Source: Nicotiana tabacum
Taxonomy: Eukaryota > Streptophyta > Magnoliopsida > Solanales > Solanaceae
Direction: 5' to 3'
DNA length: 64,000 nt
Assembly: GCF_000715075.1 (NCBI RefSeq)
Contig: NC_134087.1
Coordinates: 109,345,161 to 109,409,160 of the forward strand
Positions within the stretch are counted from its first letter, which is position 1. Each line of letters starts with the position of its first letter. The translations under genes were made by a program, and so were the position numbers. Of this stretch, positions 3,256 to 17,394 are shown in pieces. Below the pieces are notes generated by a model. That model saw only the letters and a list, made by a program, of their open reading frames with translations. It ran no database searches and was not told the origin of the DNA.

Positions 3256-3955
3256 TGTTGATTTCTGATTCTTGATGATATTCTAGTTATGTTGTTACTT
3301 TCCTTACCTGATGCTTTCTATTCGGAACCGTTATTTCCCCCACAGCATGTTTCCCCTTCCCATATTCACTGGTTATTTTTGCATTGTCTTTTCCGCTGTA
3401 TATATTTAAATTGCACGGGTTTATTTGGTAGTCTGGTCCTAGCCTCGTCACTACTTCGTCGAGGTTAGGCTAGACATTTACCAGCACATAGGGTCGGTTG
3501 TGCTGATACTACACTCTGCACTGTATGCAGATCCTGGAGCAGCTTACGAACAGTAGTTGGAGGGCTTCCTTCAGTCCACCCGGAGACCCAAGGTAGACCT
3601 GCAAGCGTTCGCGAGCCCTGGCGTCTCCCTCTATCTCTATTCCCTGTTTCATTTTCTTTCGTTCAGAAACAGATTATTGTATTTTCATCAGGCCTTGTTT
3701 GTAGTGACTCTTAGACAGTCTGTGACACTATGACACCAGGTTTTGGGTATTGAGGTTTTGAAAGTTGTAAGAGACGTAGACTTGAGTTATAAAAATTGTT
3801 GACTTTCTCTTATTTATTTAATTCCGTTATTTTCATGTTATCGCTGGTAATTGAAAAAAAAATTATTAATAAAAAGGTAGTTAAGGGTTGGCTTGCCTAG
3901 CTCTCATTAGTAGGCGCCATCACGACTCCCGAGGGTGAGAAATCCGGGTCGTGAC

Positions 3956-6553
3956 TGTAAACATGTGATTTTTGACCCTCCCCAAGATTTTTTTATATCT
4001 TAGCATGTAAATATTTAGTTTAGGCCTAATATCTCCTTTTCGGCTGATTTTGACTCTTTTACTTTATTTTGTCACAAAAAATGAAAACTACAAAAAAATA
4101 TTTTAGTTTACGTATCTTTCGTAAATTTAAATACAAAAAAATATATACAAAAATAGTACCTTATCTTTATTTTTATATAATCTTGAAACAAAAAAATAGT
4201 TTTATGCTTTATGTTTAGTTCAATTAATTAAAATTAGTTTTATATTTTTATATTATAATTGTACATAATTTTAGAAGGAGGAATTAGTTTTAGGTTGGTT
4301 TATCCCGTCTTTATAAATTTTGTAGTCCATTTTTTTTAAGTCTTTGGCCCAATTCCCTAGCCCATAATTCCTAGGCCCATAACCTTAACCTAATCTCTAC
4401 CCCTATATAATAGTACCTAATCCCCAAATTGAAGGACACTCCCTAGAGCAGCCACCCCCCTCCACAAAAAACTCCTCCTTCCTTTTCCAAAAACGGACAG
4501 CAGCTTCTCACCATTTTCAGCCATTGAAGCTCCATTAAATTGCCTCACAAGCTCCAAAATAATCAGCCATTTTCTATATAAATCCAATCATTAAAGCAAC
4601 CTTGAACAACCCCATCTTCCTCCATAAATAGCCATGGAATTCCTGCTGAAAAGAACTCCAAAAAAACTACAATGAAACACCTAAAGTCCAGGTCTAAAAA
4701 CACCATTAAAATAGCCCCTTAACCACCCTAAACCACCTCCTCTTTCTCCAAAAAACGATGCCTAAAGCTGCTGCAAATCCAACTCCGCGACAGCTTCAAA
4801 ACGCAGCAAACAGAGCTGCAAAACACCACCCAAAATCCAGCCGTAGAGAGCAGCAAAATCAGCTGCGAATTTGCTGAGAAATCTGCAGCGAAACAAGCTG
4901 AAAAATAGCTCGAAAACTTGGCAAAACCTGGCTGAAAACCAACGCCAAACAGTCCCCTTTTGCACAGAAAAATCGCAGCTCCAAGGTTGAGTCGTCGAGT
5001 TCGCCGTCACTGGTTTCCGATCGTGGTCGTTGGCGTTTGGTCCGTCTTTTGAGTTGCAAAGCTTTAAAATTCGGATTCGGCAATAAAGGTCCGTTTCTTT
5101 TACACATGTATCGTGTCTTCCTAGTTTGATTCATGGATTTTGTTTGAATGATCGTTTCATCAAGTTTATATATCTATGCGAGTGATGAATCCATACCTCG
5201 AACTGAGATTACTTACAAGTTCAATTTTTTTTTGCCAGTGTTTGAGGAAGTTTGGGAATTCGCTATTATTGTTATCATATATTAGCATGTTGTTTGGTCG
5301 TTATCTTCATTAGTTAAGCCATTATTTTCATGCTATTTGGTTAGCTGCTTTTTTGAGTTAGACGTATAATGATTAAATTGGAGCTAAAGCTATTCTTTTT
5401 ACCTTTGAATGTTTGAGGCCTTAAGTAGTTTTGTTGCATAGCTTCGCTGATTTTCGTTTAGTTAACTTGAATTTTTTTTATTGATTTCTTGTTTAATTAG
5501 AAAACTTATGAATTTACATGTTAAAAATATTGATTTAAGTTTGGTACAGCCACATGAATAAGGTGGGGAGCATCATTCTCATATTTCTTAAAGTAGCATT
5601 TGTGCTTAATAAGTGTTGAATTTTGTTTTATTTTCTCTTGTATAATTTATTCAATTTGTATGGATGCAGAAGATAGAGGTGCCCCATTAAGTGGATTGTG
5701 GTTCTAATTGGGTGTAATGCATTTGAAAATGTTAGGATTATTTAGGCGCTCCAATTTTATCATCGTGAATATGTATATGTTCGCGTAACATAATTATAAT
5801 TCTAAAACCAATTTGGAGTATGCGTTCGTGCAACTTCGATAAAATCTTCTCATAATAATAAAATGGGTTTTCATAGGCTATTAATTTAATTTAATTTATA
5901 TAGTTTGAGGTGTGCCATCTACAGTTTAATCATTCCTGGCCCTCATATTAATAACCTAGATATAAAAAGTGACAAATGTTTGCAGTTTGCTTTAGGCACG
6001 TTTAATATACTATCGTGGTTGTGGAAACGTCCGCGTGACATAATTGTGATTTTTAAAAACCAAACCGGAGTATGCGTTCGCGCAACTTTGGCCAAATTTT
6101 TCTCAATAATAATAAAGCGTTATTAATTGTGGACACGTCCCGCGACATGATTCTTGGCGCGCCAAACAAATGGGTACACGTACGCGTGACTCATTTCAAG
6201 ATAATTTTTCTTAATTTAAAAGCGATACGTTGTAAAGGAACATAGGTTCTAAAATCAGTAATTATATAATTTTGATAAGCCAAGTATGATCAAAGCGACC
6301 GTGCTAGAACCATGGAACTCGGAAGTGTCTAACACCTTCTCCCGGGTTAACAGAATTCCTTACCCGATTTCTGCATTCGCAGACAGTAATTAGAGTCAAC
6401 TTATCGATTCGGAATTTTTACCGGTGACTTGCAATACCATAAATTATTCCAAGTGGCAACTCTAATTTTTATAATTAATCCCGTTTCGATTACCACTTAA
6501 ATTGAAAAAAACTCCCCTATACCCTTCCGTTGGTAGGAAAAGGAGGTGTGACA
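3956..6553 (+). repeat. 5' LTR of element C (2598 bp)
   Basis: Starts tgtaaacatgtgatttttg and ends gtgtgaca just before the primer binding site. A TATA-like box, ctatataatag, at about 4402-4412 is the likely core promoter. The 3' copy lacks the roughly 170-bp block (about 4252-4425) that contains it. The 3' copy also lacks about 55 bp near the end (6497-6548). Small reading frames in this LTR are conserved in the other copy only because the LTR itself is duplicated. Confidence 0.88.
4402..4412 (+). promoter_or_regulatory. TATA-like box in 5' LTR of C
   Basis: ctatataatag lies in the first half of the LTR, followed within 30-60 bp by a pyrimidine- and C-rich stretch, as expected of a U3/R boundary. 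It is absent from the 3' LTR because of a deletion. Confidence 0.55.
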
Positions 6554-6557
6554 GCTC

Positions 6558-6575
6558 TGGCAACTCTGCTGGGGA
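6558..6575 (+). other. Primer binding site of element C
   Basis: tggcaactctgctgggga starts 5 bp inside the 5' LTR end. This tggcRactctgctgggga form is the one I associate with Ogre/Tat elements rather than the initiator-Met site used by the chromoviruses here. The exact tRNA is not assigned. Its first ten bases are repeated inside the LTR at 6454-6463. Confidence 0.72.
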
Positions 6576-7299
6576 TAAGAAACCAGAACTTTCGGTTCAG
6601 GGTTCAAGAATTCGAGCTTATTAATGCGATTTTTATTTGGCTTTATTGTTGATATTACTGTATTTTGCGGACTTAATGTGCTAATTGTCATTTACCGCTT
6701 TGATATTGTTTGAATTGTATATAGTTGTCTTCTTACGCCACCCCTCTGAGTATTCTGAAAATGGTGCACACATTCGCGTGGCCCGCTTTTTTTATAGAAA
6801 TTATACCAAATAGAACGAGTTTGGGCAAGCGACAAGGCCGGGTAGACTTCAGTGCTCCCGGTACGTCGCCCCCTCTTCAGCGCCAGTTGTCCGCTCGGGT
6901 ACCCCAAGTCTAGACCAAAACCCTAGGATTTAAACCTAGAAAAACAGAGCTTCATGCCGGATCCCTAGTAGGAACGTTTGTTTGAATCATGTGCATTTGA
7001 CTTAGGGGACTCAACACAGGGGTTGGGTCCGTCTAGGACAGGTGTGCCCAAAATAACAGACCATCCTGATGCATTCTATGTGCTATGTGAATATTTATTT
7101 GTTTCAGCTTGCATGCTGACCGGCTAAGGAAAGAAAAACAACAGAAAAAAAAACCAAGACTGAGATAGGATAGAGAATTTACCTGGTTCTGAAAATCCCG
7201 ATGTTCGAAAATGCCTCGAAACTCTGCCCAAATTGTTTGAAAAAAATAAAAGGAAAATGTATTTCAATATCATGTTTTTCCAATTATGTCAAAACTGGC

Positions 7300-7363
7300 G
7301 AACTACACGGGTCTGATTCTCACCGAATGTGAGATACGTAGGCAAACCTCATCGGTTCCGGCC
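7300..7363 (+). other. Covarying hairpin module, copy 1
   Basis: Pattern: gaacta-c, about 8 nt, CTGAT, then stem TCTCAC (7318-7323), loop cgaat, stem GTGAGA (7329-7334), then TACGTAGGCA. The flanks match three further copies in element C, whereas the stem sequence is different but still perfectly paired. Confidence 0.8.
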
Positions 7364-7369
7364 CATAAT

Positions 7370-7795
7370 TTTCAAAAATCCAAAAATATTTTCCTTTACT
7401 TCCTCTCTAGAAAAGTCTTTTTTTTAGACCCCAATTTTCAAATATCCAAAATATTTTTCATTACTTGCTTCTTTAGAAAGCCTTTCTTTTAGACCCTAAT
7501 TGTTTTAAAAAAAATATACAAAAATATTTTCTTTTAGTTTCTTCTCAAAATCCAAAAATATTTGTCATTCTTCTTACAAAATTTGAAAAGAAAATTCAAG
7601 ATTCAAAAAATATTTCCTTTTTCTTTAGGATCATTTCTTGCATAAATTCAAAATAAAATTCCAAAAAAAAAATATGTTCTTTCTTCTGTAGAGTTTCTTT
7701 TAAAAAAAATACAGACCAAAAATCGAAATCCAAAAATATTTTGCTTCTTCTTTTTAAGTTTTTCTTCCGAAAAAGTCCAAAATCCAAAAAAGGTT
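7370..7795 (+). repeat. A/T-rich degenerate tandem repeat in the leader of C
   Basis: About seven irregular units of roughly 55-60 bp built on 'aaaatccaaaaatatttt' followed by a pyrimidine run (cttctttag-like) lie between the first two hairpin modules. No coding potential is credible; the open frames here are low-complexity Phe/Lys strings. Confidence 0.65.
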
Positions 7796-7824
7796 AGTTT
7801 ATTTACTTTATTCCTGATCTTCCC

Positions 7825-7887
7825 GAACTACGCAAGATCTGATTCATGTTCCCACATGATACGTAGGCAACCCACATCATGTTCGAT
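7825..7887 (+). other. Covarying hairpin module, copy 2
   Basis: gaactacg, then CTGAT, stem TCATGT (7844-7849), loop tccc, stem ACATGA (7854-7859), then TACGTAGGCA. The outer CTACG/CGTAG can also pair. It lies about 140 bp upstream of the gag start. Confidence 0.8.
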
Positions 7888-8024
7888 CAATCGAAAAAAA
7901 AGTGAAAAAATGATGATAATAATACGAACCGACTGAGTCCATTCTAAAATGTTTTGTTTTGAATTGTGAAGAAAGTTGAGGTGGTCGGTTTGTGGTAAGC
8001 CGGAAACACAAGATCCAAGGAAAA

Positions 8025-9665
8025 ATGATAACTGACGTCGAAGCTGTTACAAGTGCTCAATAGACTCAGGGTAAGAGGGTTCAACAAGAGTCTATTGTGT
8101 TTGAGAAAAATAGAATACTGAAACAGCAAATGACCGAAATGTGTCAAGCATGGGCTAGTGGTCAAGGATAGCCTCGTCATGAGTCACAATTTGCTACACA
8201 ACAAGAGTAGTACCACTCTCATGAGTACCACTCGTACTCGTTTGATCTTCCTGCAAACATTGAGAAGCCTGCCCGAAAGATGGTACAGGAAGAAATGACC
8301 CAAAGAGTGAAAATCTTAGAACAACAGTTGAAAAACATGCAAGGGTTGGCAGGTCAAAAGAGTGTTGCCTTCAAAGATCTATGCATGTTCCCCGATATCC
8401 ACTTGTCAGCTGGTTTCAAGACTCTCAAATTTGAAAAGTATGATGGACATGGAGATCCCATAGCCCACCTGAAATTGTATTGCAATCAACTGAGAGCTGC
8501 GTGAAGAAATGAAGAATTTTTGATGGCTTATTTTGGGGAAAGCCTTATGGGAGTAGCCTCCAAATGGTTTATGGATCAAGACACGTCTCACTAGTATGTC
8601 TGGGATGACATGGCACAGGCCTTTGTCAAACAGTTCCAATACAACATCGACATTGCCCTAGACCGCATTTCCCTTTCAAACCTGAAGAAGAAACCAACTG
8701 AAAGTTTCAGGGAATATGCCATTAAATGGAGAGAGCAAGCAGCTAGAGTTAAGCCACCCATGGACGACCACGAGCTAATCACTGTCTTCCTTCACGCTCA
8801 AGAGCCAGATTATTATCAAAACATGATGTCCGCAGTGGGCAAATCCTTCTCGGAAGCAATCAAAATGGGAGAAATGGTAGAGAATGGTCTTAAGAAAGGA
8901 AAAATTATAAGTCAAGCAGTTCTTAAAGCCGCAACTCAGGCTGTCCAGGTTGAATCTAATAATTTTAGTGGCACAAATGAGAAGGATGAAGAAATCATGA
9001 TGACATCAGGGTCGGGAAGAGGTCCGAGGAGAATGTCTCGAAGGTATGACCAACCTCGTCTATTTTCCGATAACTCCCCTGAGCATTACTATCCCCCTCA
9101 GAACCCACAATACTCTGTTGTTCCACCTCAGTATGTTGTCCAACCACCAAAATACCCCAGAAGGCGAGCACAAGCATCACAAAATCTCTACCAGCCTCCA
9201 CAAAATTTTCAAGTGCCCTATAACCCACATCCCTGCCAGGGGTATAGAAGGGAACAAAGGTTGAAAGATAATTTTACACTAATAGGAGAGTCCTATGCAA
9301 GCTTATTTGAGAAGTTAAAGAATCATGACATGATTGCACCCATTCCTCCAAATCGTGTGGACCCACGTGCAAGGAGCTTTTACCCATCTAAAAGGTGTGA
9401 ATACCATTCTAATGCCCAAGGGCACAATGTTGAAAGTTGTTGGGATTTGAAAAGAGAAATAGAAATGATGATCCAGGAAAAACTGATTGTGATCCAAGAC
9501 AGTGGCGCCCAGAATATCGTGCAGAATCCTTTGTTTGCACATGATGATGCACACTTTGTGGGGATGATGCCTGGTGATATGGAGTATGAGAATCCTCTCG
9601 GGAACTTGCTAACTGAAGTTAATGATGTTGAAATTGGAGAAGGCTCTACTGATTCTGATGAGTAA
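8025..9665 (+). pseudogene. gag of element C, one frame with five internal stops
   Basis: A single frame of about 546 codons runs from ATG 8025 to the stop at 9663-9665, interrupted by TAG at 8061, 8169, 8208 and 8592 and TGA at 8502. I chose this start because it is the first ATG in the frame and translation from it gives a glutamine-rich coiled coil before the conserved part. The core shows the Tat/Ogre Gag style: FEKYDGHGDPIAHLKLYC, then a capsid helix block (AQAFVKQFQYNIDIALDR, ESFREYAIKWREQAARV). A Pro/Tyr/Gln-rich linker and a C-x2-H-x5-H-x4-C finger (CEYHSNAQGHNVESC) follow. The protein would form the particle and bind element RNA. Its end (acidic, STDSDE) is a true stop; no protease follows. 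Four of five stops are TAG, consistent with C-to-T decay at CAG or CGA. Confidence 0.9.
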
Positions 9666-10469
9666 ATTTATGGCTAAATGTCAAGCCTAGCAATTGAAAA
9701 GTCTTTCCCTCCTCACTAGGAAGGAATCTTGGTAGCTTGTTTTGATGTTTTTTCAATTATCTGGGTTATTTCAGGGTTGTGATCCAGATTTTATTTGATT
9801 TATTGAGTCAAACCCTTCTATCCCTCCATTCTGTCTGTGTGAGTCTTGTCCGTTTGTTCTGTTGCTATTTTCATTATTCGGGATATTTTAGGGTTGTAAC
9901 TCGGATCTTGGGTTGTTTGTCTTGTTGTCAAATCCTTTCATCCTTTACTCAATAAAATATAGTTTGTCCTTTTGTGTCATTTTGGTCCTAGTTCTTTTCT
10001 TGCTAGTTCTAATGACATGACATGCATGCGGAAATTTTGGCCAGATCTTAGAAACTGATTTAATATGGAATCGGATAATTGAAAAAAAAAAGATACTTTT
10101 GAGGATGAATAGAGAGTTGAGATACTTTGGAATTGAGGTCGAGTAAAATTCACCTTCAAATCATTGTGGAGGTCGGGCTTGAGGATGTTTAGTCAATTGA
10201 AGTTTGTAGGAAAGTAAAGGATGGAAAGTGTCTTGTGACCACGACACACCAAGAAGACAGACATGTTTGTCAATGCTGTGATCGGGAAAAGATACCATGT
10301 TTGGCATTCTCGAGGTTGGGAGGCCCTTTTTCTACTACCCAAACACTTTATACCCTTTATTACCCCTTTTGAGCCTGTGTTATTTTCTTTGACCACCCCC
10401 TTTTGGAATCAAGTTTAGAGTCGAGAGTCAAAAAAAATTAAAATAAATGATGAAAAAAGAAAAGAAAAG
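9666..10469 (+). other. Non-coding 3' region of C, first part
   Basis: About 800 bp after gag without a credible reading frame. Two loosely similar blocks (about 9745-9830 and 9855-9940) share 'tgttttgttgttttcaatta/ctattttcattattcgggata' and 'gggttgtgatcc/gggttgtaactc', suggesting an old internal duplication. No pol motif seen. Confidence 0.5.
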
Positions 10470-10473
10470 TCCA

Positions 10474-10800
10474 TACCCCAAGAGTACAAACTGGGGCAGC
10501 TCTTTGAAAGTTCAAGTAAAAAAAAAGAAGAAAAGAACTATCGAAGGTCCATGCCCTCAAAAATAGAAGCTGGGGCAAACAAATAAAAAAGGAAAAAGAA
10601 AAAAAGGGAAACAGAAAGAAAGGTGCAAAACATTTTAGGTCAGATGTTTGAACTATGTTAGACCTGATTCCTTTAAAATAAGGATACGTAGGTAGCCTCA
10701 CGGTTCAGTCCAACCAAATAAGAATTTAGAAGAAAAAGAAAAGAAAATAGAAAAAATAGAAAAAAATCGAAAAATCCCCAGCATCTGAAACTGGGGCAGA
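10474..10800 (+). repeat. Reiterated polypurine-tract-like motif with flanking CCCCA
   Basis: aaactggggcag-like motifs occur at about 10487-10498, 10568-10577 and 10788-10799, each preceded by 12-20 nt with ccccaag, gccctc or ccccag, so CCCCA/TGGGG hairpins can form in at least two. A further variant, aaactagggcag, is at about 12808, and the real polypurine tract before the 3' LTR (13754-13765) is aacaggggcagc. Confidence 0.6.
10650..10712 (+). other. Covarying hairpin module, copy 3
   Basis: gaactatg, CTGAT, stem TCCTT (10669-10673), loop of six, stem AAGGA (10680-10684), then TACGTAGGTA. The outer CTATG/CGTAG pairs with one G-U wobble. Located downstream of gag. Confidence 0.78.
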
Positions 10801-12003
10801 GATTTTATTTTACTTTTGAAAGAGGCGATTCCAAGAGTTGTAAGTGCACAACCCCCTTTACTTTGAGTTTATTTTGAGCCTTCATGACGTCTTTTCTTTC
10901 CAACCCTATCCAAAATCCTTCCAAATAAAGACCTCCGAATATGCCTTCAAGAATGCCAAGAGAAGCATGGAATGACCAACGGTTGTCACATGACGTAGAA
11001 CATCGTCGAGTTGCTCACACAAGAAGGCAAAAGAAAAAAAAAGAGAAAAATGAGAGAGTCTTAGTAGTGAAAACCCTAGCACTGTAAGGCGACGGTAAGC
11101 GGAGATAAATAAATGAGAGAGACTTGTTGGTGAAAATCCCTCGGGGCACCATTAGTCGAAAGTAAGTCATGAAGCTGATGTCAAGAATTGGCACGGATAG
11201 GCCCGACTTCAAAGATCATAAGAATGGTAAAAGGGAAGATTGGATTAGTTTGATAGATCGGGTCGTTGATTCCAAAATGCATGTCCATGATAATTAAGGC
11301 TAGTTATTGAAAAAAAAAAGAAAAAAAATTCTTTCTTCTGTCCTTGTGACAGGGGCATTTCTTGTTAATATTTGTTTCTTTGCATCATTTGTGTCTTCCA
11401 CTTTTAGTTAGTCTTTCTCAAAACAAGCAAGAAAAGATTTCAAAATCTACTACTAGCTTTTCAGTTGTACAAAGTAAATTTGGCCAGCAAACTCAGTTGT
11501 TAATGTCAACATGCCTTGAGGATTCATACAAAGGCTTCCCCAAAAGACTCTTGTCAGCCTACTTGGCGCAAACAAAGATAACTTGTGATTCTCTCTGACA
11601 GACAAATTGCTCAAAGCAGGAAATCATTCAAGATATCAAAAAGGGTCACCTAAGAAAAGATCTCTGGTTGGGATAAAGTTGATTGAGCTACAAATACAAA
11701 TGGTACTGTGTGTGAAACAATTAGGGTTAATGCAAAGCAAAAGTATCTCGAAACCAACTCAAGCTGATCGAGAAAATCAAAGCTGCTCAAGACTCAAGGC
11801 CACAAACCGACCACCATTTTCAAAACTGACAAATTTTTCTTTATGTGAAACAGGAACAAAGCAGTGCGAGGAAAGTGGTTAAAAAAAAAAGAAGAAAAAG
11901 AAAAGAAGAAAAGAGCCGACAAAGGGAAGTTTCTCAAATCTTTTCCTTTACTTATCTTGCTAGTGTGCACAAATTTTACCATTGTTCTTTACGTTTTTCC
12001 TCC

Positions 12004-12548
12004 TAGGATAAAAGTCCTAGTCTGATGGATCTTCTCCCAATAAAATCTTAGTTTGATGAATCTTTCTCCTAAGATAGAAGACCTAGTCTGATGAACTTTC
12101 TCCTAGGATCAAAATCTTAGTCTGATGAGTTTTTCTCTTAAGATAGAAAACCTAGTCTGATGAACTTTCTCCTAGGATAGAAATCTTAGTCTGATGAATC
12201 TTTCTCCTAAGATAACAAAAAGAGGACCTAGTCTGATGAATTTTCTCCTAGAGTCAAAATCTTAGTCTGATGAATTTTTCTCCTAAGATAGAAAACCTAG
12301 TATGATGAACTTTCTCCTAGGATAGAAATCTTAGTCTGATGAACCTTTCTCCTAAGATAGAAAACCTAGTCTGATGAATTTTCTCCTAGGATAAATGTCT
12401 TAGTCGGATGAATCTTTCTCCTAAGATACCAAAAAGAGCCAAAAAAGGGACCTAGTCTGATGAATTTTCTCCTAGGATTAAGGTCTTAGTCTGATGAATC
12501 TTTCTCCTAAGATAGAAAAGCTAGTCTGATGAATTTTCTCCTAAGATA
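12004..12548 (+). repeat. Tandem array of about 15 alternating hairpin half-units in C
   Basis: The array has a dimeric period of about 69 bp. One half-unit reads cctagtctgatgaa-ctttct-cctagg, the other cttagtctgatgaa-tctttct-cctaag, joined by a/t-rich linkers (atagaaaa). Each half-unit can fold with a five-base stem, CCTAG/CTAGG in one type and CTTAG/CTAAG in the other. Position between gag and the 3' LTR matches the hypervariable, satellite-prone 3' region known in Tat/Ogre elements. Confidence 0.9.
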
Positions 12549-12777
12549 ATAATTTAGAAAAAAGAAAGGGGAAGTCTAAATTTGAAAAAAAGAAGAAGAA
12601 GGGAGTCATTTTTTTTAGTTTTCTTAAGATTATCAATGTTTAGTTTTCTTGAAATCAGGGGGCCCCGCTTGGAGAATAGGGTTCGTTTTACTTTAGTCAA
12701 GCTTAGTTTATAGTTTTCTTAGTCTATTCTTTAGTTTACTCTCATCATTGCATCAATAGCATAAGTGGTTTACAGTT

Positions 12778-13386
12778 TTGCTAACAACTCACAAATCTTC
12801 CGAGCACAAACTAGGGCAGAAAAATTTCTTTTGTTTTGTCTGTTTTGTGGTAATCAGGAGCCCACCTGAAGAACAAAGTAATTTCGAAAGAAGACAGTTT
12901 AAGTTCAGCAATCATGCGCCCACCTGGAGAACAAGGGAAGACAACTCAAGTTTCAAGGGGAAGAAGTTTCGAAGGAAGACAGTTCAAGTTTCAAGGCAAA
13001 ATAGTTCAAGGTGCAAGGGAAAACAGTGTCAAGTAACAAGAGAAGACGGTTCAAGTTCAGCAATCAGGCGCCCACCTGGAAAAAAAGGGAATTCAATTCA
13101 GAATGCAATTCAGGTCAGCAACAAAAGAAGCTCGCATCAAGAATGCGAGTCAGCAGTCCAAGATGATCAACAGAAATTAGTCACAATCCAGAATAAAAAG
13201 AAAAAAAAACAAAAAGAAAGACAAGAAGTGAATCCAAATGTAGAAGTTAATGAAAGACGCGAGCTGCTTAGGACACGGCTGAGGTCACAAGCTCTGCATG
13301 TCCCATTTTGGTCTGAAAAGTTGAAGAAGAACAAACTAGCACCTGCAACTAGCAAGCGTCAAGGTTCAAATCCAAAGTCTGTATGA
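12778..13386 (+). other. Open frame in 3' region of C, probably not a gene
   Basis: A 202-codon open frame rich in Ser, Gln, Lys and Arg. It arises from a purine-rich stretch with internal near-repeats ('gttcaagtttcaaggg', 'agcaatcaggcgcccacctgg' at about 12910 and 13059). I see no domain, no signal peptide and no membrane segment. Compositional openness is the simplest explanation; an accessory product cannot be excluded. Confidence 0.2.
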
Positions 13387-13584
13387 AGAACCATTCAAAA
13401 CTCAGGATCAACCTTCAGAAGACTTATAGATAAGAATCTTGTAACTCTTAGTTGGTAGACTTAGCTAGTCTTTTCCATTTCTTGATTTTTTGATGTAATA
13501 ATGGGACTACAGACCGGAACCTCGGTGGAACGGCACCTCGATCGGCTCTTCACCTTGGCATACTCCACCGTCTCACCCACCTCT

Positions 13585-13653
13585 GAACTACACGTGGCCT
13601 GATTCCTTTATAGCCAAGGATATGTAGGCAGCTTAGATACCAGGGCTCGGTCA
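13585..13653 (+). other. Covarying hairpin module, copy 4
   Basis: gaactaca, CTGAT, stem TCCTT (13604-13608), loop of seven, stem AAGGA (13616-13620), then TATGTAGGCA. Here the outer pair is CTACA/TGTAG, a compensatory change relative to CTACG/CGTAG in copy 2. Confidence 0.8.
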
Positions 13654-13753
13654 CATTCCCCTTTTCTCTTAGTTATAACCTCTCCAAATAAGGGTCGGGT
13701 CAAAAAACCTGTCTAGTCATTCTTTGTCAGAAAATATTTCGCATTTCCAGTCA

Positions 13754-13765
13754 AACAGGGGCAGC
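13754..13765 (+). other. Polypurine tract of element C
   Basis: aacaggggcagc lies immediately upstream of the 3' LTR start; this is where plus-strand DNA synthesis would be primed. Confidence 0.7.
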
Positions 13766-16155
13766 CGTAGACATGTGATTTTTGACCATTCCCAAGATTA
13801 TTTATATCTTAGCATGTAAATATTTAGTTTAGGCCTAATATCTCCATTTCATCTGATTTTGACTCTTTTACTTTATTTCGTCACAAAAAATAAAAATTAC
13901 AAAAAAATATTTTAGTTTACGTATCTTTCGTAAATTTAAATAAAAAAAAATATATACAAAAATAGTACCTTATCCTTATTTGTTTATAGTCTTGAAACAC
14001 AAAAAATAAATTTATGCTTTATGTTTAGTTCAATTAATTAAAATTATTTTTATATTTTTATATCTCTTAATTGAAGGACACTCCCTAGAACAGCCGCACC
14101 CCCCTCCACAAAAAACTCCTCCTTCCTTTTCCAAAAACGGACAGCAGCTTCTCACCATTTTCAGCCATTGAAGCTCCATTAAATTACCTCACAAGCTCCA
14201 AAAATAAGCAGCCATTTTCTCCATAAATCCAATCATTAAAGTAACCTTGAACAACCCCATCTTCCTCTATAAATAGCCATGGAATTCTTGCTGAAAAGAA
14301 CTCCAAAAACACTACAATGAAACACCTAAAGTCCATCTCTAAAAACACCATCAAAATAGCCCCTTAACCACCCTAAACCACCTCCTCTTTCTCCAAAAAA
14401 ATGCAGCCTAAAGCTGCTGCAAATCCAACTCCGCGATAGCTTCAAAACGCAGCAAACAGAGCTGCAAAACACCACCCAAAATCCAGCAGTAGAGAGCAGC
14501 AAAATCAGCTGCGAATCTGCTGAAAAATCTGCAGCGAAACAAGCTACAAAATAGCTCGAAAACCTGCCAAAACCTGGCTGAAAACCAACACCAAACAGTC
14601 CCTTTTTGCACAGAAAAATCGCAGCTCGAAGGTTGAGTCGTCGAGTTCGCCGTCACAGGTTTCCGATCGTGGTCTTTGGCGTTTCATCTGTCTTTTTAGT
14701 TACAAAGATTTAAAATTCGGATTCGGCAATAAAGGTCCGTTTCTTTTACACATGCATCATATCTTCCTAGTCTGATTCATGGATTTTATTTGAATGATCA
14801 TTTCGTCAAGTTTATATATCTATGCGAGTGATGAATCCATAACTCAGAACTGAGATTACTTACAAGTTCAATTTTTTTTTTCCAGTATTTGAGGAAGTTT
14901 GGGAATTCACTATTATTGTTATCATATATTAGCATGTTGGTTGGTCGTTATCTTCATTAGGTAAGCCATTATTTTCATGCTATTTGGTTAGATGCTTTTT
15001 TGAGTTAGATGAATAATGATGAAATTGGAGCTAAAGCTATTCTTTTTACCTCTGAATGTTTGAGGCCTTAAGTAGTTTTGTTGCTTAGCATCGCTGATTT
15101 TCATTTAGTTATCTTGAGTTTTATTTATTGATTTCTTGTTTAATTAGAAAACTTATGAATTTACATGTTAAAAATATTGATTTAAGTTTGGTACAGTCAC
15201 ATGAATAAGGTGGGGAGCATCATTCTCATATTTCTTAAAGTAGCATTTGTGCTTAATAAGTGTTGAATTTTGTTTTTTTTTTCTCTTGTATAATTTATTC
15301 AATTTGTATGGATGTAGAAGATAGAGGTGCCCCATTAAGTGGGTTGTGGTTCTAATTGGGTGTAATGCATTTGAAAACGTTAGGATTATTTAGGCGCTCC
15401 AATTTTATCATCTTGATTATGTATACGTTCGCGTAACATAATTATGATTCTAAAACCAATTTGGAGTATGCGTTCGCGCAACTTCGATCAAATCTTCTCG
15501 TAATAATAAAATGAATTTTCATAGGCTATTAATTTAATTTAATTTATATAGTTTGAGGTATGCCATCTACAGTTTAATCATTCATGGCCCTCATATTAAT
15601 AGCCTAGATATAAAAAGTGACAAATGTTCGCAGTTTGCTTTAGGCACGTTTAATATACTATCGTGGTTGTGGACACGTCCGCATGACATGATTGTGATTT
15701 TTAAAAACCAAACTGGAGTATGCATTCACGCAACTTTGGCCAAATTTTTCTCAATAATAATAAAGCGCTATTAATTGTGGACATGTCCGCGTGACATGAT
15801 TCTTGATACGGGAAACAAATGGGTACACGTACGCGTGACCCATTTCAAGATAATTTTTCTTAGTTTAAAAGCGGTAAGCGGTAAAGGCACATAGGTTCTA
15901 AAATCAGTAATTATATAATTTTGATAAGCCAAGTATGATCAAAGCGGCCGTGCTAGAACCACGGAACTCGGGAGTGCCTAACACCTTCTCCCGGGTTAAC
16001 ATAATTCCTTACCCAAATTTCTGCGTTTGCAGACCGTAATTAGAGTCAACTTCCTCGATTCGCAATTTTTACCGGTGACTTGGAACACCATAAATTATTC
16101 CAAGTGGAGACTCTGATTTTTATAATTAATCCCGTTTCGATTGCCACCTGAGACA
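13766..16155 (+). repeat. 3' LTR of element C (2390 bp)
   Basis: Alignable with 3956-6553 from cgtagacatgtgatt to gagaca, with scattered substitutions. Two deletions relative to the 5' copy: about 170 bp near 14062, which removes the TATA region, and about 55 bp near 16150. The last bases are followed directly by the gtgac target duplication. Confidence 0.88.
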
Positions 16156-16160
16156 GTGAC

Positions 16161-16681
16161 AGCCTGAGAGACGGCTGGGGCTACAGGAAGCAAGTATGCC
16201 CGGGTGATACTTTCCATAAGGTCCACTAGATGGACCATAGCATCCTGGAGTATTGAGGTAGCAATAAACCCCTATGGGACCTGAGCTGGGCCCACCGGAA
16301 CTGTCGGGGCCGAAACCTCATCATCAAAGTCAACCTAAGGCTCCGCCGTTGGTGCTGCTGCTCTAGGCTGATCTCTGGCCCTACCTCAGCCTCTAGCACG
16401 GCCTCGCCCTCTGCCCCTCATGGGAGCTGCTGCTGGGGGCATGGGCTGCTGATCAGTGGATAAGGAAGCGTGTGGTCTCACCATCTGCGAAAAAACAGAA
16501 TAGAAATTCAATTAGCATTGAGAAACCAAACCGCGCGACATGAAAGAATAAATGTGAAGCTTTTCCTAACTCTGTAGCCTCTAGGGGATAAATACAGACG
16601 TCTCCATACCGATCCCTCAGACTCTACTAAGCTTGTCTATGAATTGTGAGACCCATGTAACCTAGAGCTATGATACCATCT
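16161..16681 (-). pseudogene. 5' leader, primer binding site and gag N-terminus of chromovirus A
   Basis: On the minus strand the LTR end tgaca (16686-16682) is followed by tggtatcatagctc (16678-16665), a one-base variant of the plant initiator-Met primer binding site. A leader follows, then ATG at 16484. The predicted protein begins MVRPHASLSTDQQP and runs into an Arg/Gly-rich tail, the same N-terminus as element I (52675). The ATG is preceded by a T-run and gcag, resembling a splice acceptor, in both elements. Homology stops at 16161, equivalent to about 53003 in element I, where LTR B was inserted; gag resumes at 961. Confidence 0.85.
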
Positions 16682-17394
16682 TGTCACGAACCGAATTTCC
16701 TACCCTCGGGAGTCGTGATGGTACCTACTAATGTGAGCTAGACAAGCAGATTGTTTGGACCAATTACCTTTTTACCCCTTTTATATTCTTTAACAATTAC
16801 AAAGCAATAACATATAGATAGTAGAATTTACAATAAGCAGAAGAAAAGCAATAAATCATCTGAATATGTATCCAATACAACTATTTGAGCATCAACTACC
16901 CATAACTGGTGTCACCATTTCACAGACGATCTAAGAATACTACATATAAAGTCTGAAAGATAAAAGATACACTTTTTTCTGAACTAAGTAAATGAAATAG
17001 GAGTAAAAGGATAGAAGGAGACGCAAGGGCCTACAAACGCCTATAGGACTACCTTGGATCTCCGCGTGGACTGAAGGAAGCCACCCAATCTACGGTCCAA
17101 AAGCTACTGCTCCAGGATCTGCACACAGTGCAAAGTATTGTATCAGCAAAACCAACCCCATATGCTGGTAAGTGCCTAGCCTAACCTAAGTGAAGTAGTG
17201 ACTAGGCTAGAACTAGACTAGCAAATGAACCTGTGCAATTCAACTATATACAATGGAAAAGAAGAACAACAATATACAGTCAAGTATAGGAGGGGTAACA
17301 GGTTGCGGGGGAACTATCAATTAGAGTAGAAAGACAACAGGTAATTGAAAGAAACTACTATCTCAAACATCAACAAAGAATTAGAAATCAATAA

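Follow-up and report, generated by a model that had tools for sequence, protein, structure and literature searches.

Four copies of a structured module in a tobacco retrotransposon

The window considered here, a 64,000-nt stretch of Nicotiana tabacum contig NC_134087.1, carries a long terminal repeat (LTR) retrotransposon whose LTRs were matched by blastn and a repeat search, and within this one element lie four copies of a module of about 65 nt (Table 1). The module comprises four helices in the strand order P1-P2-TGAT-P3-P3'-TA-P1'-GCA-P4-P4'-TC-P2'. Covariation establishes helices P2, P3 and P4. P1 probably exists as well and, since P2 crosses it, the two would form a pseudoknot. P2 joins the four letters 5' of TGAT to the four letters 3' of P4 (GACC/GGTC, GGTC/GACC, GGTT/AACC, GATC/GATC, GACT/AGTC and AACC/GGTT are examples), and P4 is a small hairpin directly 3' of TACGTAGGCA (for example ACCC..GGGT, AATC..GATT, GCC..GGC or AACCT..AGGTT). 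P2, P3 and P4 make up a three-way junction with mostly constant unpaired joints, namely TGAT, TA, G(C/A)A and (T/C)C, and P1 would tie this junction by crossing P2.

The pattern CTGAT N{8,34} TAYGTAGG has exactly four matches in the window (7313, 7839, 10664 and 13599), all on the plus strand, compared with a mean of 0.12 in dinucleotide shuffles of the window, none of which (0/100) held four or more. The strong covariance-model matches in the window are likewise these four modules only. An earlier note, made from the window sequence, had described four sites with GAACTAY starts at 7300, 7825, 10650 and 13585, and a hairpin (now P3) with the stem letters TCTCAC/GTGAGA, TCATGT/ACATGA, TCCTT/AAGGA and TCCTT/AAGGA; starts and letters were all recovered. 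Its placing of two copies in the leader, one after gag and one before the polypurine tract agrees with the LTRs, primer-binding-like site, gag and polypurine-tract-like sequence now located. The hairpin and the outer helix (now P1) that it described belong to the module, but the module continues for about 20 nt beyond TACGTAGG on the 3' side, taking in P4 and the 3' strand of P2; these two helices, and hence the pseudoknot, had been missed and were found by listing whole modules. To call the hairpin fully covarying was too strong on four copies, as the stem letters are identical in copies 3 and 4 and the outer helix of copy 1 has an A.C mismatch.

Table 1. Features of the element, in window coordinates (A1, alignment of 98 modules; ORF, open reading frame).
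Feature	Position	Strand	Basis or detail
5' LTR	3957..6496	+	part matched by 3' LTR; blastn, 93–94% identity
Primer-binding-site-like sequence	6558..6575	+	TGGCAACTCTGCTGGGGA; pattern match
Module copy 1 (position 1a, leader)	7300..7364	+	sequence, A1, covariance model 66.4 bits (copy itself in model)
Copy 1, P1 and P2	P1 7303-7307/7337-7341; P2 7310-7313/7360-7363	+	P1 CTACA/CGTAG, one A.C mismatch; P2 GGTC/GGCC
Copy 1, remainder	TGAT 7314-7317; P3 7318-7323/7329-7334; TA 7335-7336; P4 7345-7348/7354-7357	+
Module copy 2 (position 2, leader before gag)	7825..7889	+	sequence, A1, 71.6 bits
Copy 2, P1 and P2	P1 7828-7832/7862-7866; P2 7836-7839/7885-7888	+	P2 GATC/GATC
Copy 2, remainder	TGAT 7840-7843; P3 7844-7849/7854-7859; TA 7860-7861; P4 7870-7873/7879-7882	+	P4, 2/4 pairs intact
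gag ORF, 351 aa	8610..9665	+	PF03732 Retrotrans_gag, E 2.4e-05
Module copy 3 (position 3, after gag)	10650..10711	+	sequence, A1, 67.6 bits
Copy 3, P1 and P2	P1 10653-10657/10687-10691; P2 10661-10664/10707-10710	+	P1, one U.G; P2 GACC/AGTC, 3/4 pairs
Copy 3, remainder	TGAT 10665-10668; P3 10669-10673/10680-10684; TA 10685-10686; P4 10695-10697/10702-10704	+
Module copy 4 (position 4, ~100 nt 5' of polypurine tract)	13585..13653	+	sequence, A1, 68.9 bits
Copy 4, P1 and P2	P1 13588-13592/13623-13627; P2 13596-13599/13649-13652	+	P1 CTACA/TGTAG; P2 GGCC/GGTC
Copy 4, remainder	TGAT 13600-13603; P3 13604-13608/13616-13620; TA 13621-13622; P4 13631-13634/13643-13646	+
Polypurine-tract-like sequence	13753..13764	+	AAACAGGGGCAG; adjoins 3' LTR
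3' LTR	13767..16147	+	matched part; repeat search and blastn

Covariation of the helices

Alignment A1 contains 98 modules (96 distinct), four from the window and the rest from contig C1 of this genome; 100 rows had been parsed, and two chance rows (L207 on the minus strand, and window 42992) were excluded. Taken over the 18 pairs of the four helices, 95.0% of cells are paired, against 18.9–41.1% for slid partners, double changes occur at 13 pairs, and the covariation score is 0.476 (at most 0.109 when slid). P2 alone is paired in 96.4% of cells with double changes at all four of its pairs (score 0.684, slid at most 0.271), while P3 is paired in 90.6% and changes on both sides at four of five pairs. 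The corresponding value for P1, 99.0% (slid at most 45.6%), is inflated by motif-based sampling, as is the invariance of TGAT and TA; P2, P3 and P4 lay outside the selection. Among 60 short loci, 12 gave no row with the search pattern: nine lacked a module and three held real ones, with a broken P1 (L212, L215) or with TAAT in place of TGAT (L260). TAAT was also seen in two more of 53 strong covariance-model matches.

RNAalifold, supplied with no structure, returned P2, P3 and P4 together, with both sides changing at 11 of 12 pairs. In a tree-aware null, in which substitutions are dealt to random branches, P2, P3 and P4 were the three best disjoint four-pair helices of all those possible, and a helix as good as any of them appeared in none of 1500 null alignments; in a first run of 60 alignments, 0, 1 and 1 reached the levels of P2, P3 and P4 for the same three helices. 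The proposal that the P3 stem is under selection for structure therefore gained support from both the 98 modules and the null alignments. Double compensatory changes on the tree number 1 for P1, 6 for P2, 11 for P3 and 7 for P4, and pair-breaking changes 5, 12, 22 and 17, many of the latter presumably reflecting decay of old copies. The six top-scoring column pairs of a stricter pairwise test are all structural (P4, P3, P3, P2, P2 and P1).

In the 48 rows fetched after P2 and P4 had been noticed, paired cells amounted to 182/192 for P2, 170/182 for P4 and 217/240 for P3; these rows share families with the first set and so check the claim without representing independent evolution. Combining strands of different rows gave 81.9% (P2), 84.9% (P4) and 72.0% (P3), and pairing within rows is higher for each. 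The stems contain 92 G-U against 36 A-C combinations, compared with 1727 and 2307 in slid controls, an excess that points to the sense RNA strand and fits the suggestion that the module acts on element RNA. A further hairpin, P0 (GAAC with GTTC), appears in some nested folds and was rejected, its 5' side being near-invariant while the 3' side varies uncompensated (67–92 of 96 rows paired per pair).

Relatives of the element and position of the copies

Searches of the window element by tblastn with the frames of pol-bearing relatives (E up to 0.01) detected no reverse transcriptase, RNase H, integrase or ORF upstream of gag; gag alone was found, and similarity to the relatives' gag frame spans approximately 8178–9569. 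A pol-bearing relative on C1 shows the order module (1766416), ORF, module (1769040), gag-pol frames, two modules (1776782 and 1779237) and a polypurine-tract-like sequence (1779410), its pol being split over several frames. In the relative L018, gag was identified by Pfam and is followed by RVT_1, RT_RNaseH_2, then RVT_3 and then rve; L021 has a corresponding frame that is gag-like by tblastn, and RVT_1, RT_RNaseH and RVT_3 (the integrase part was outside the scan). A second RNase H (aRH) between RNase H and integrase is given as the mark of Tat elements in PMC6317226. On our own reading, RVT_3 in both relatives is aRH, so that the module-bearing relatives with pol have the double RNase H, and the host elements are Tat-type Ty3/gypsy retrotransposons, probably Ogre-like.

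Ogre-type Tat elements have an extra ORF upstream of gag. Among the relatives, ORFs of 193, 244 and 248 aa lie upstream of the gag-like frame, with 32% and 70% identity to that of L021, which in its element falls between module positions 1 and 2. These ORFs (L021 110–844, L020 9120–9866 on the minus strand, L018 122–703) encode a conserved protein that looks coiled-coil-like by eye. A G-patch (PF01585) lies 5' of the reverse transcriptase in L018 (4139–4801, 22.3 bits) and L021 (1400–4876, 21.4 bits), the cut-off being 22; G-patches are present in some betaretroviral proteases.

Some elements carry five modules (L019, and L022 with L234). Eight elements, chosen for having at least four, contributed 34 modules to a positional test, in which the nearest relative was the module at the same position of another element in 33 cases, the exception being the first module of L012. 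Same-position relatives are 76–99% identical (33 modules), whereas the nearest sibling within an element is 51–81% identical, and every one of the 34 is closer to another element's module than to its siblings. The copies are therefore old, position-bound paralogues that have kept the fold while changing the stem letters, and a single recent duplication with chance pairing, which the earlier note had named as its refutation, is excluded.

With regard to the window element itself, the 5' LTR probably starts with TG at 3964 and ends near 6551, and the 3' LTR probably starts with TG at 13774 and lacks its last stretch; about 170 nt of the 5' LTR (4254–4426) have no counterpart in the 3' LTR. Primer-binding sequences of the TGGCAACTCTGCTGGGGA type also occur in 5 of 20 fetched loci of 4–10 kb. 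A tandem array of seven staggered copies spaced 69–86 nt apart occupies 11973–12593, with CCTAG..CTAGG and CTTAG..CTAAG half-sites alternating around TCTGATGA, and may represent another group of varying hairpins, located in the 3' untranslated region (UTR). Sequences like ACTGGGGCAG that resemble the polypurine tract are seen at 10490–10499, 10570–10577 and 10790–10799. GGGGCA follows 12 of 16 position-3 modules at a distance of 60–142 nt and all four position-4 modules at 127–135 nt, where it is presumably the polypurine tract itself. The whole element is flanked by three inverted-repeat pairs with 75–90% complementarity (3501–3955 / 16683–17148), as would be expected had it landed in, or between, inverted copies of a different repeat.

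Abundance in the genome and database controls

The pattern CTGAT N{8,34} TACGTAGG has 47,595 matches in the 4.0-Gb genome, compared with 2,753 for the reversed pattern. An exact core (GAACTAC[G/A], YTGAT and TA[C/T]GTAGG) was counted separately for each state of the last P1 pair, giving 56,382 copies with G-C, 24,122 with A-U, 2,700 with A.C and 3,204 with G.U (86,408 in total), against 1, 0, 2 and 0 for the reversed controls in the same order. This corresponds to an odds ratio of about 157; G-C prevails at positions 1–3 and A-U at position 4, and a single event passed on to many copies may explain the split. CpG decay contributes to the classes with one change, but as the sole cause of the A-U pair it is contradicted, though not fully excluded, by the four counts.

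A covariance model of the nested helices gave 53 matches of at least 48 bits in the window and 20 fetched stretches (253,002 bases), the next scoring 14.4 and 11.1 bits; since these stretches were chosen for holding TACGTAGG and many of the matches built the model, the number does not represent a genome average. Loose-pattern matches in prokaryote genomes (among the matches listed) and in viral contigs appear to be chance matches, with one exception (L040), and served as controls. Of 172 such stretches, 79 were scored with the model, the best reaching 30.8 bits (L040) and the next 18.3. A P3 of at least 4 bp is present in one of 172 control matches (L040 again) and in 51 of 64 from this genome; with the looser measure of at least 5 bp the figures are 2/173 and 26/36, the controls in both cases being among the matches listed. 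P2 by itself does not discriminate on single matches, 54 of 172 chance matches among those listed having at least 4 bp somewhere in the tail. A stricter pattern had no match in viral contigs, and querying these with a Tat reverse transcriptase brought up no relative. Four viral contigs (L145, L147, L171 and L199) share CTACGCCCCAGTTTGAT..TACGTAGGGGGCC, which is like the module outline; at 15–18 bits for the three scored, this was taken as coincidence.

L040, a scaffold of 4,160 nt, is listed as part of a Solirubrobacter assembly. Since it lacks any 100-aa ORF and a primer-binding sequence of the TGGCAACTCTGCTGGGGA type is present at 3515, it is taken to be plant contamination. Its one module has P1 CTACG/CGTAG, a P2 of 7 bp (TGGACTT/AAGTCCA) and a 9-bp P3, and the letters of P2 and P3 are absent from the 98 rows. 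Its neighbourhood had no match in this genome, in a search unable to prove absence. The scaffold appears to supply a copy from another lineage.

A search of window 4000–17000 against Rfam (E up to 1) gave no match to the modules, the sole match being isrD (E 0.36, 7665–7713, minus strand). No description of such a module appeared among the matches listed in searches of the open-licence literature, although one may exist elsewhere or in a repeat database; a literature match to TACGTAGGCA proved to be a maize actin primer in PMC2077865.

Proposed function and alternatives

While the fold is well supported, the mechanism has to be deduced. The best explanation of the whole, put forward tentatively, is that this Tat-type RNA fold provides a repeated docking or recognition site on element RNA. 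The four or five copies, found consistently in the leader, 5' of gag, 3' of the last ORF and 5' of the polypurine tract, would be docking sites for a protein, most likely an element-encoded one (Gag, or the protein of the ORF that precedes gag), and the constant joints would be its binding surface. Full-length RNA might be recognised through several sites at both ends. Such recognition may serve packaging into particles, and non-autonomous elements like that of the window would then keep the sites so that their own RNA is carried along. What bears on a packaging signal is indirect, namely that four modules are kept in an element with no detectable pol, which points to a cis-acting role.

Several observations weigh against this reading. 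Only two single column pairs reach E<0.05 in the stricter pairwise test. The mean energy of P2+P3+P4 is -6.9 kcal/mol, compared with -16.5 for the best nested fold (98 rows), and for seven of nine single modules the z-score relative to shuffles is no lower than -1.34, so that they are not clearly better folded. The covariation claimed earlier for the outer helix holds only weakly, as the tree contains a single double change for P1, and an alternative helix, CYUG/UAGG, could form in 98.7% of cells (with no double changes). The window helices are imperfect, copy 1 being short of one P1 pair, copy 2 of two P4 pairs and copy 3 of one P2 pair. The module of L040 lies about 690 nt 5' of the primer-binding sequence and so probably inside an LTR rather than in the leader, which a simple position rule would not predict.

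The main rival, less probable than not by some distance, is that the module would be an RNA transport or stability element that recruits host export factors or blocks decay, allowing full-length RNA to arrive in the cytoplasm unspliced. It might work like the RNA transport element (RTE) of intracisternal A-particles (IAP), the MusD transport element (MTE), the constitutive transport element (CTE) of Mason-Pfizer monkey virus (MPMV), or exonuclease-resistant RNAs (xrRNAs). Splicing out an internal intron would leave the leader and 3' UTR copies in place, an Ogre intron being mentioned in PMC12786077, and plant-virus xrRNAs likewise rest on a covarying pseudoknot (PMC6299227). However, the xrRNA_D fold, as described in PMC6299227, is built differently, from helices P1 and P2 plus a pseudoknot, plants rely on TREX rather than TAP/NXF1 (PMC12786077), so that the animal route would not carry over directly, and a block to decay would need fewer than the four or five sites present, of which two lie towards the 3' end.

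A rival of similar standing, also rather unlikely, concerns P1, which may be no helix at all. The module would then be a plain P2-P3-P4 junction, with GAACTACG and TACGTAGG kept as protein-contact letters, or with the 3' TAGG pairing alternatively to CYUG, so that the RNA would switch between P2 and CYUG/UAGG. Two of the five P1 pairs are invariant and only one has a double change; genome-wide there is a single instance of a double change (A-U to G-C) at the middle pair, alignment columns 18–19 are nearly all C or T, and P1 is broken in two of the three modules left out of A1. The high pairability of CYUG/UAGG speaks for the same alternative. Against it stand the paired P1 cells, bearing in mind that sampling favours them, and the switch of the last P1 pair from G-C to A-U with its genome-wide odds ratio, where CpG decay would have yielded mostly single changes and no large A-U class.

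It is very unlikely that the module is a self-cleaving ribozyme acting at the borders between cistrons of the transcript. Its strand order (P1-P2-P3-P3'-P1'-P4-P4'-P2') matches the one in the hepatitis delta virus (HDV) ribozyme, the unpaired TGAT and TA beside crossing helices look core-like, and modules lie between open frames in the pol-bearing relative. No Rfam ribozyme model matched up to E=1, however, P3 does not abut P1 and its loop has no common letters, and GAA upstream of P1 is kept in 93/98 rows (14 of the 98 were fetched with GAACTA in the pattern); cleavage, moreover, would destroy genomic RNA that carries four or five copies per element. Least credible is a DNA-level feature (palindromic site, transcription-factor site or mobile hairpin) or duplication artefact, for although TACGTA is palindromic and copies abound, the crossing helices and the excess of G-U accord with sense RNA in single-stranded form, and siblings differ more than same-position relatives do.

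If the docking-site reading is extended, the fold would be an undescribed one of such age that Tat-type elements of different plants share it, kept in four or five positional copies per element and among the most abundant structured RNA motifs of plants: a repeated address that autonomous elements read and non-autonomous ones exploit, possibly with a switch between P1+P2 and CYUG/UAGG that sorts RNA between translation and packaging. This extension is doubtful. Little is known of the cis-acting signals in the RNA of plant LTR retrotransposons; a December 2025 review states that export of their RNA is without direct study (PMC12786077), and even the packaging sequences of yeast Ty3 are described as not precisely defined (PMC11381356). 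A defined fold of about 65 nt, in which each base pair can be disrupted and then restored by compensation, brings two questions within reach of tests on short RNAs or reporters, namely what marks element RNA and how elements lacking pol are mobilised, and would give annotators of such elements a structure-based tag.

Comparison with known systems

Cis-acting structured RNAs are a known kind of retroelement feature; this fold is, as far as could be seen, undescribed. The MPMV CTE is one retroelement RNA transport element. The RTE of IAP and the MTE of MusD are likewise structured cis-acting RNAs, and the MTE has a pseudoknot (PMC12786077). RTE, MTE and CTE have been described for animals, whereas the module here is present in four or five positional copies per element.

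Among ribozymes, that of HDV has the strand order P1-P2-P3-P1'-P4-P2' with a hairpin in each pseudoknot loop, its P3 abuts P1 directly and the conserved L3 forms P1.1. The module shares the order, with a weaker P1, and the likeness is limited to this: its joints are TGAT (4 nt) and TA (2 nt), its P3 loops vary in length and letters, its conserved upstream GAA differs from HDV-like ribozymes, and no HDV model of Rfam matched in window 4000–17000 (such models hold no pseudoknots). With the hammerhead it has in common a three-way junction, CUGAU and often UC before the closing helix. The hammerhead core has CUGANGA and GAAA joints, whereas the module has TGAT followed by P3, and TACGTAGGCA, with no GA after CUGAN, no GAAA and no Rfam match.

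Tat/Retand elements also carry tandem repeats and antisense ORFs between pol and the 3' LTR (PMC11963269). These are family-specific repeats and ORFs, and the main text of that paper nowhere uses the terms hairpin, stem or secondary structure. The leaders of yeast Ty1 and Ty3 are, like the module, structured genomic RNA, and the Ty1 pseudoknot has been validated experimentally (PMC11381356); unlike here, no repeated positional module was seen in that description. The plant-virus xrRNA_D, as described in PMC6299227, is likewise a small RNA with a pseudoknot supported by covariation, but with another helix order.

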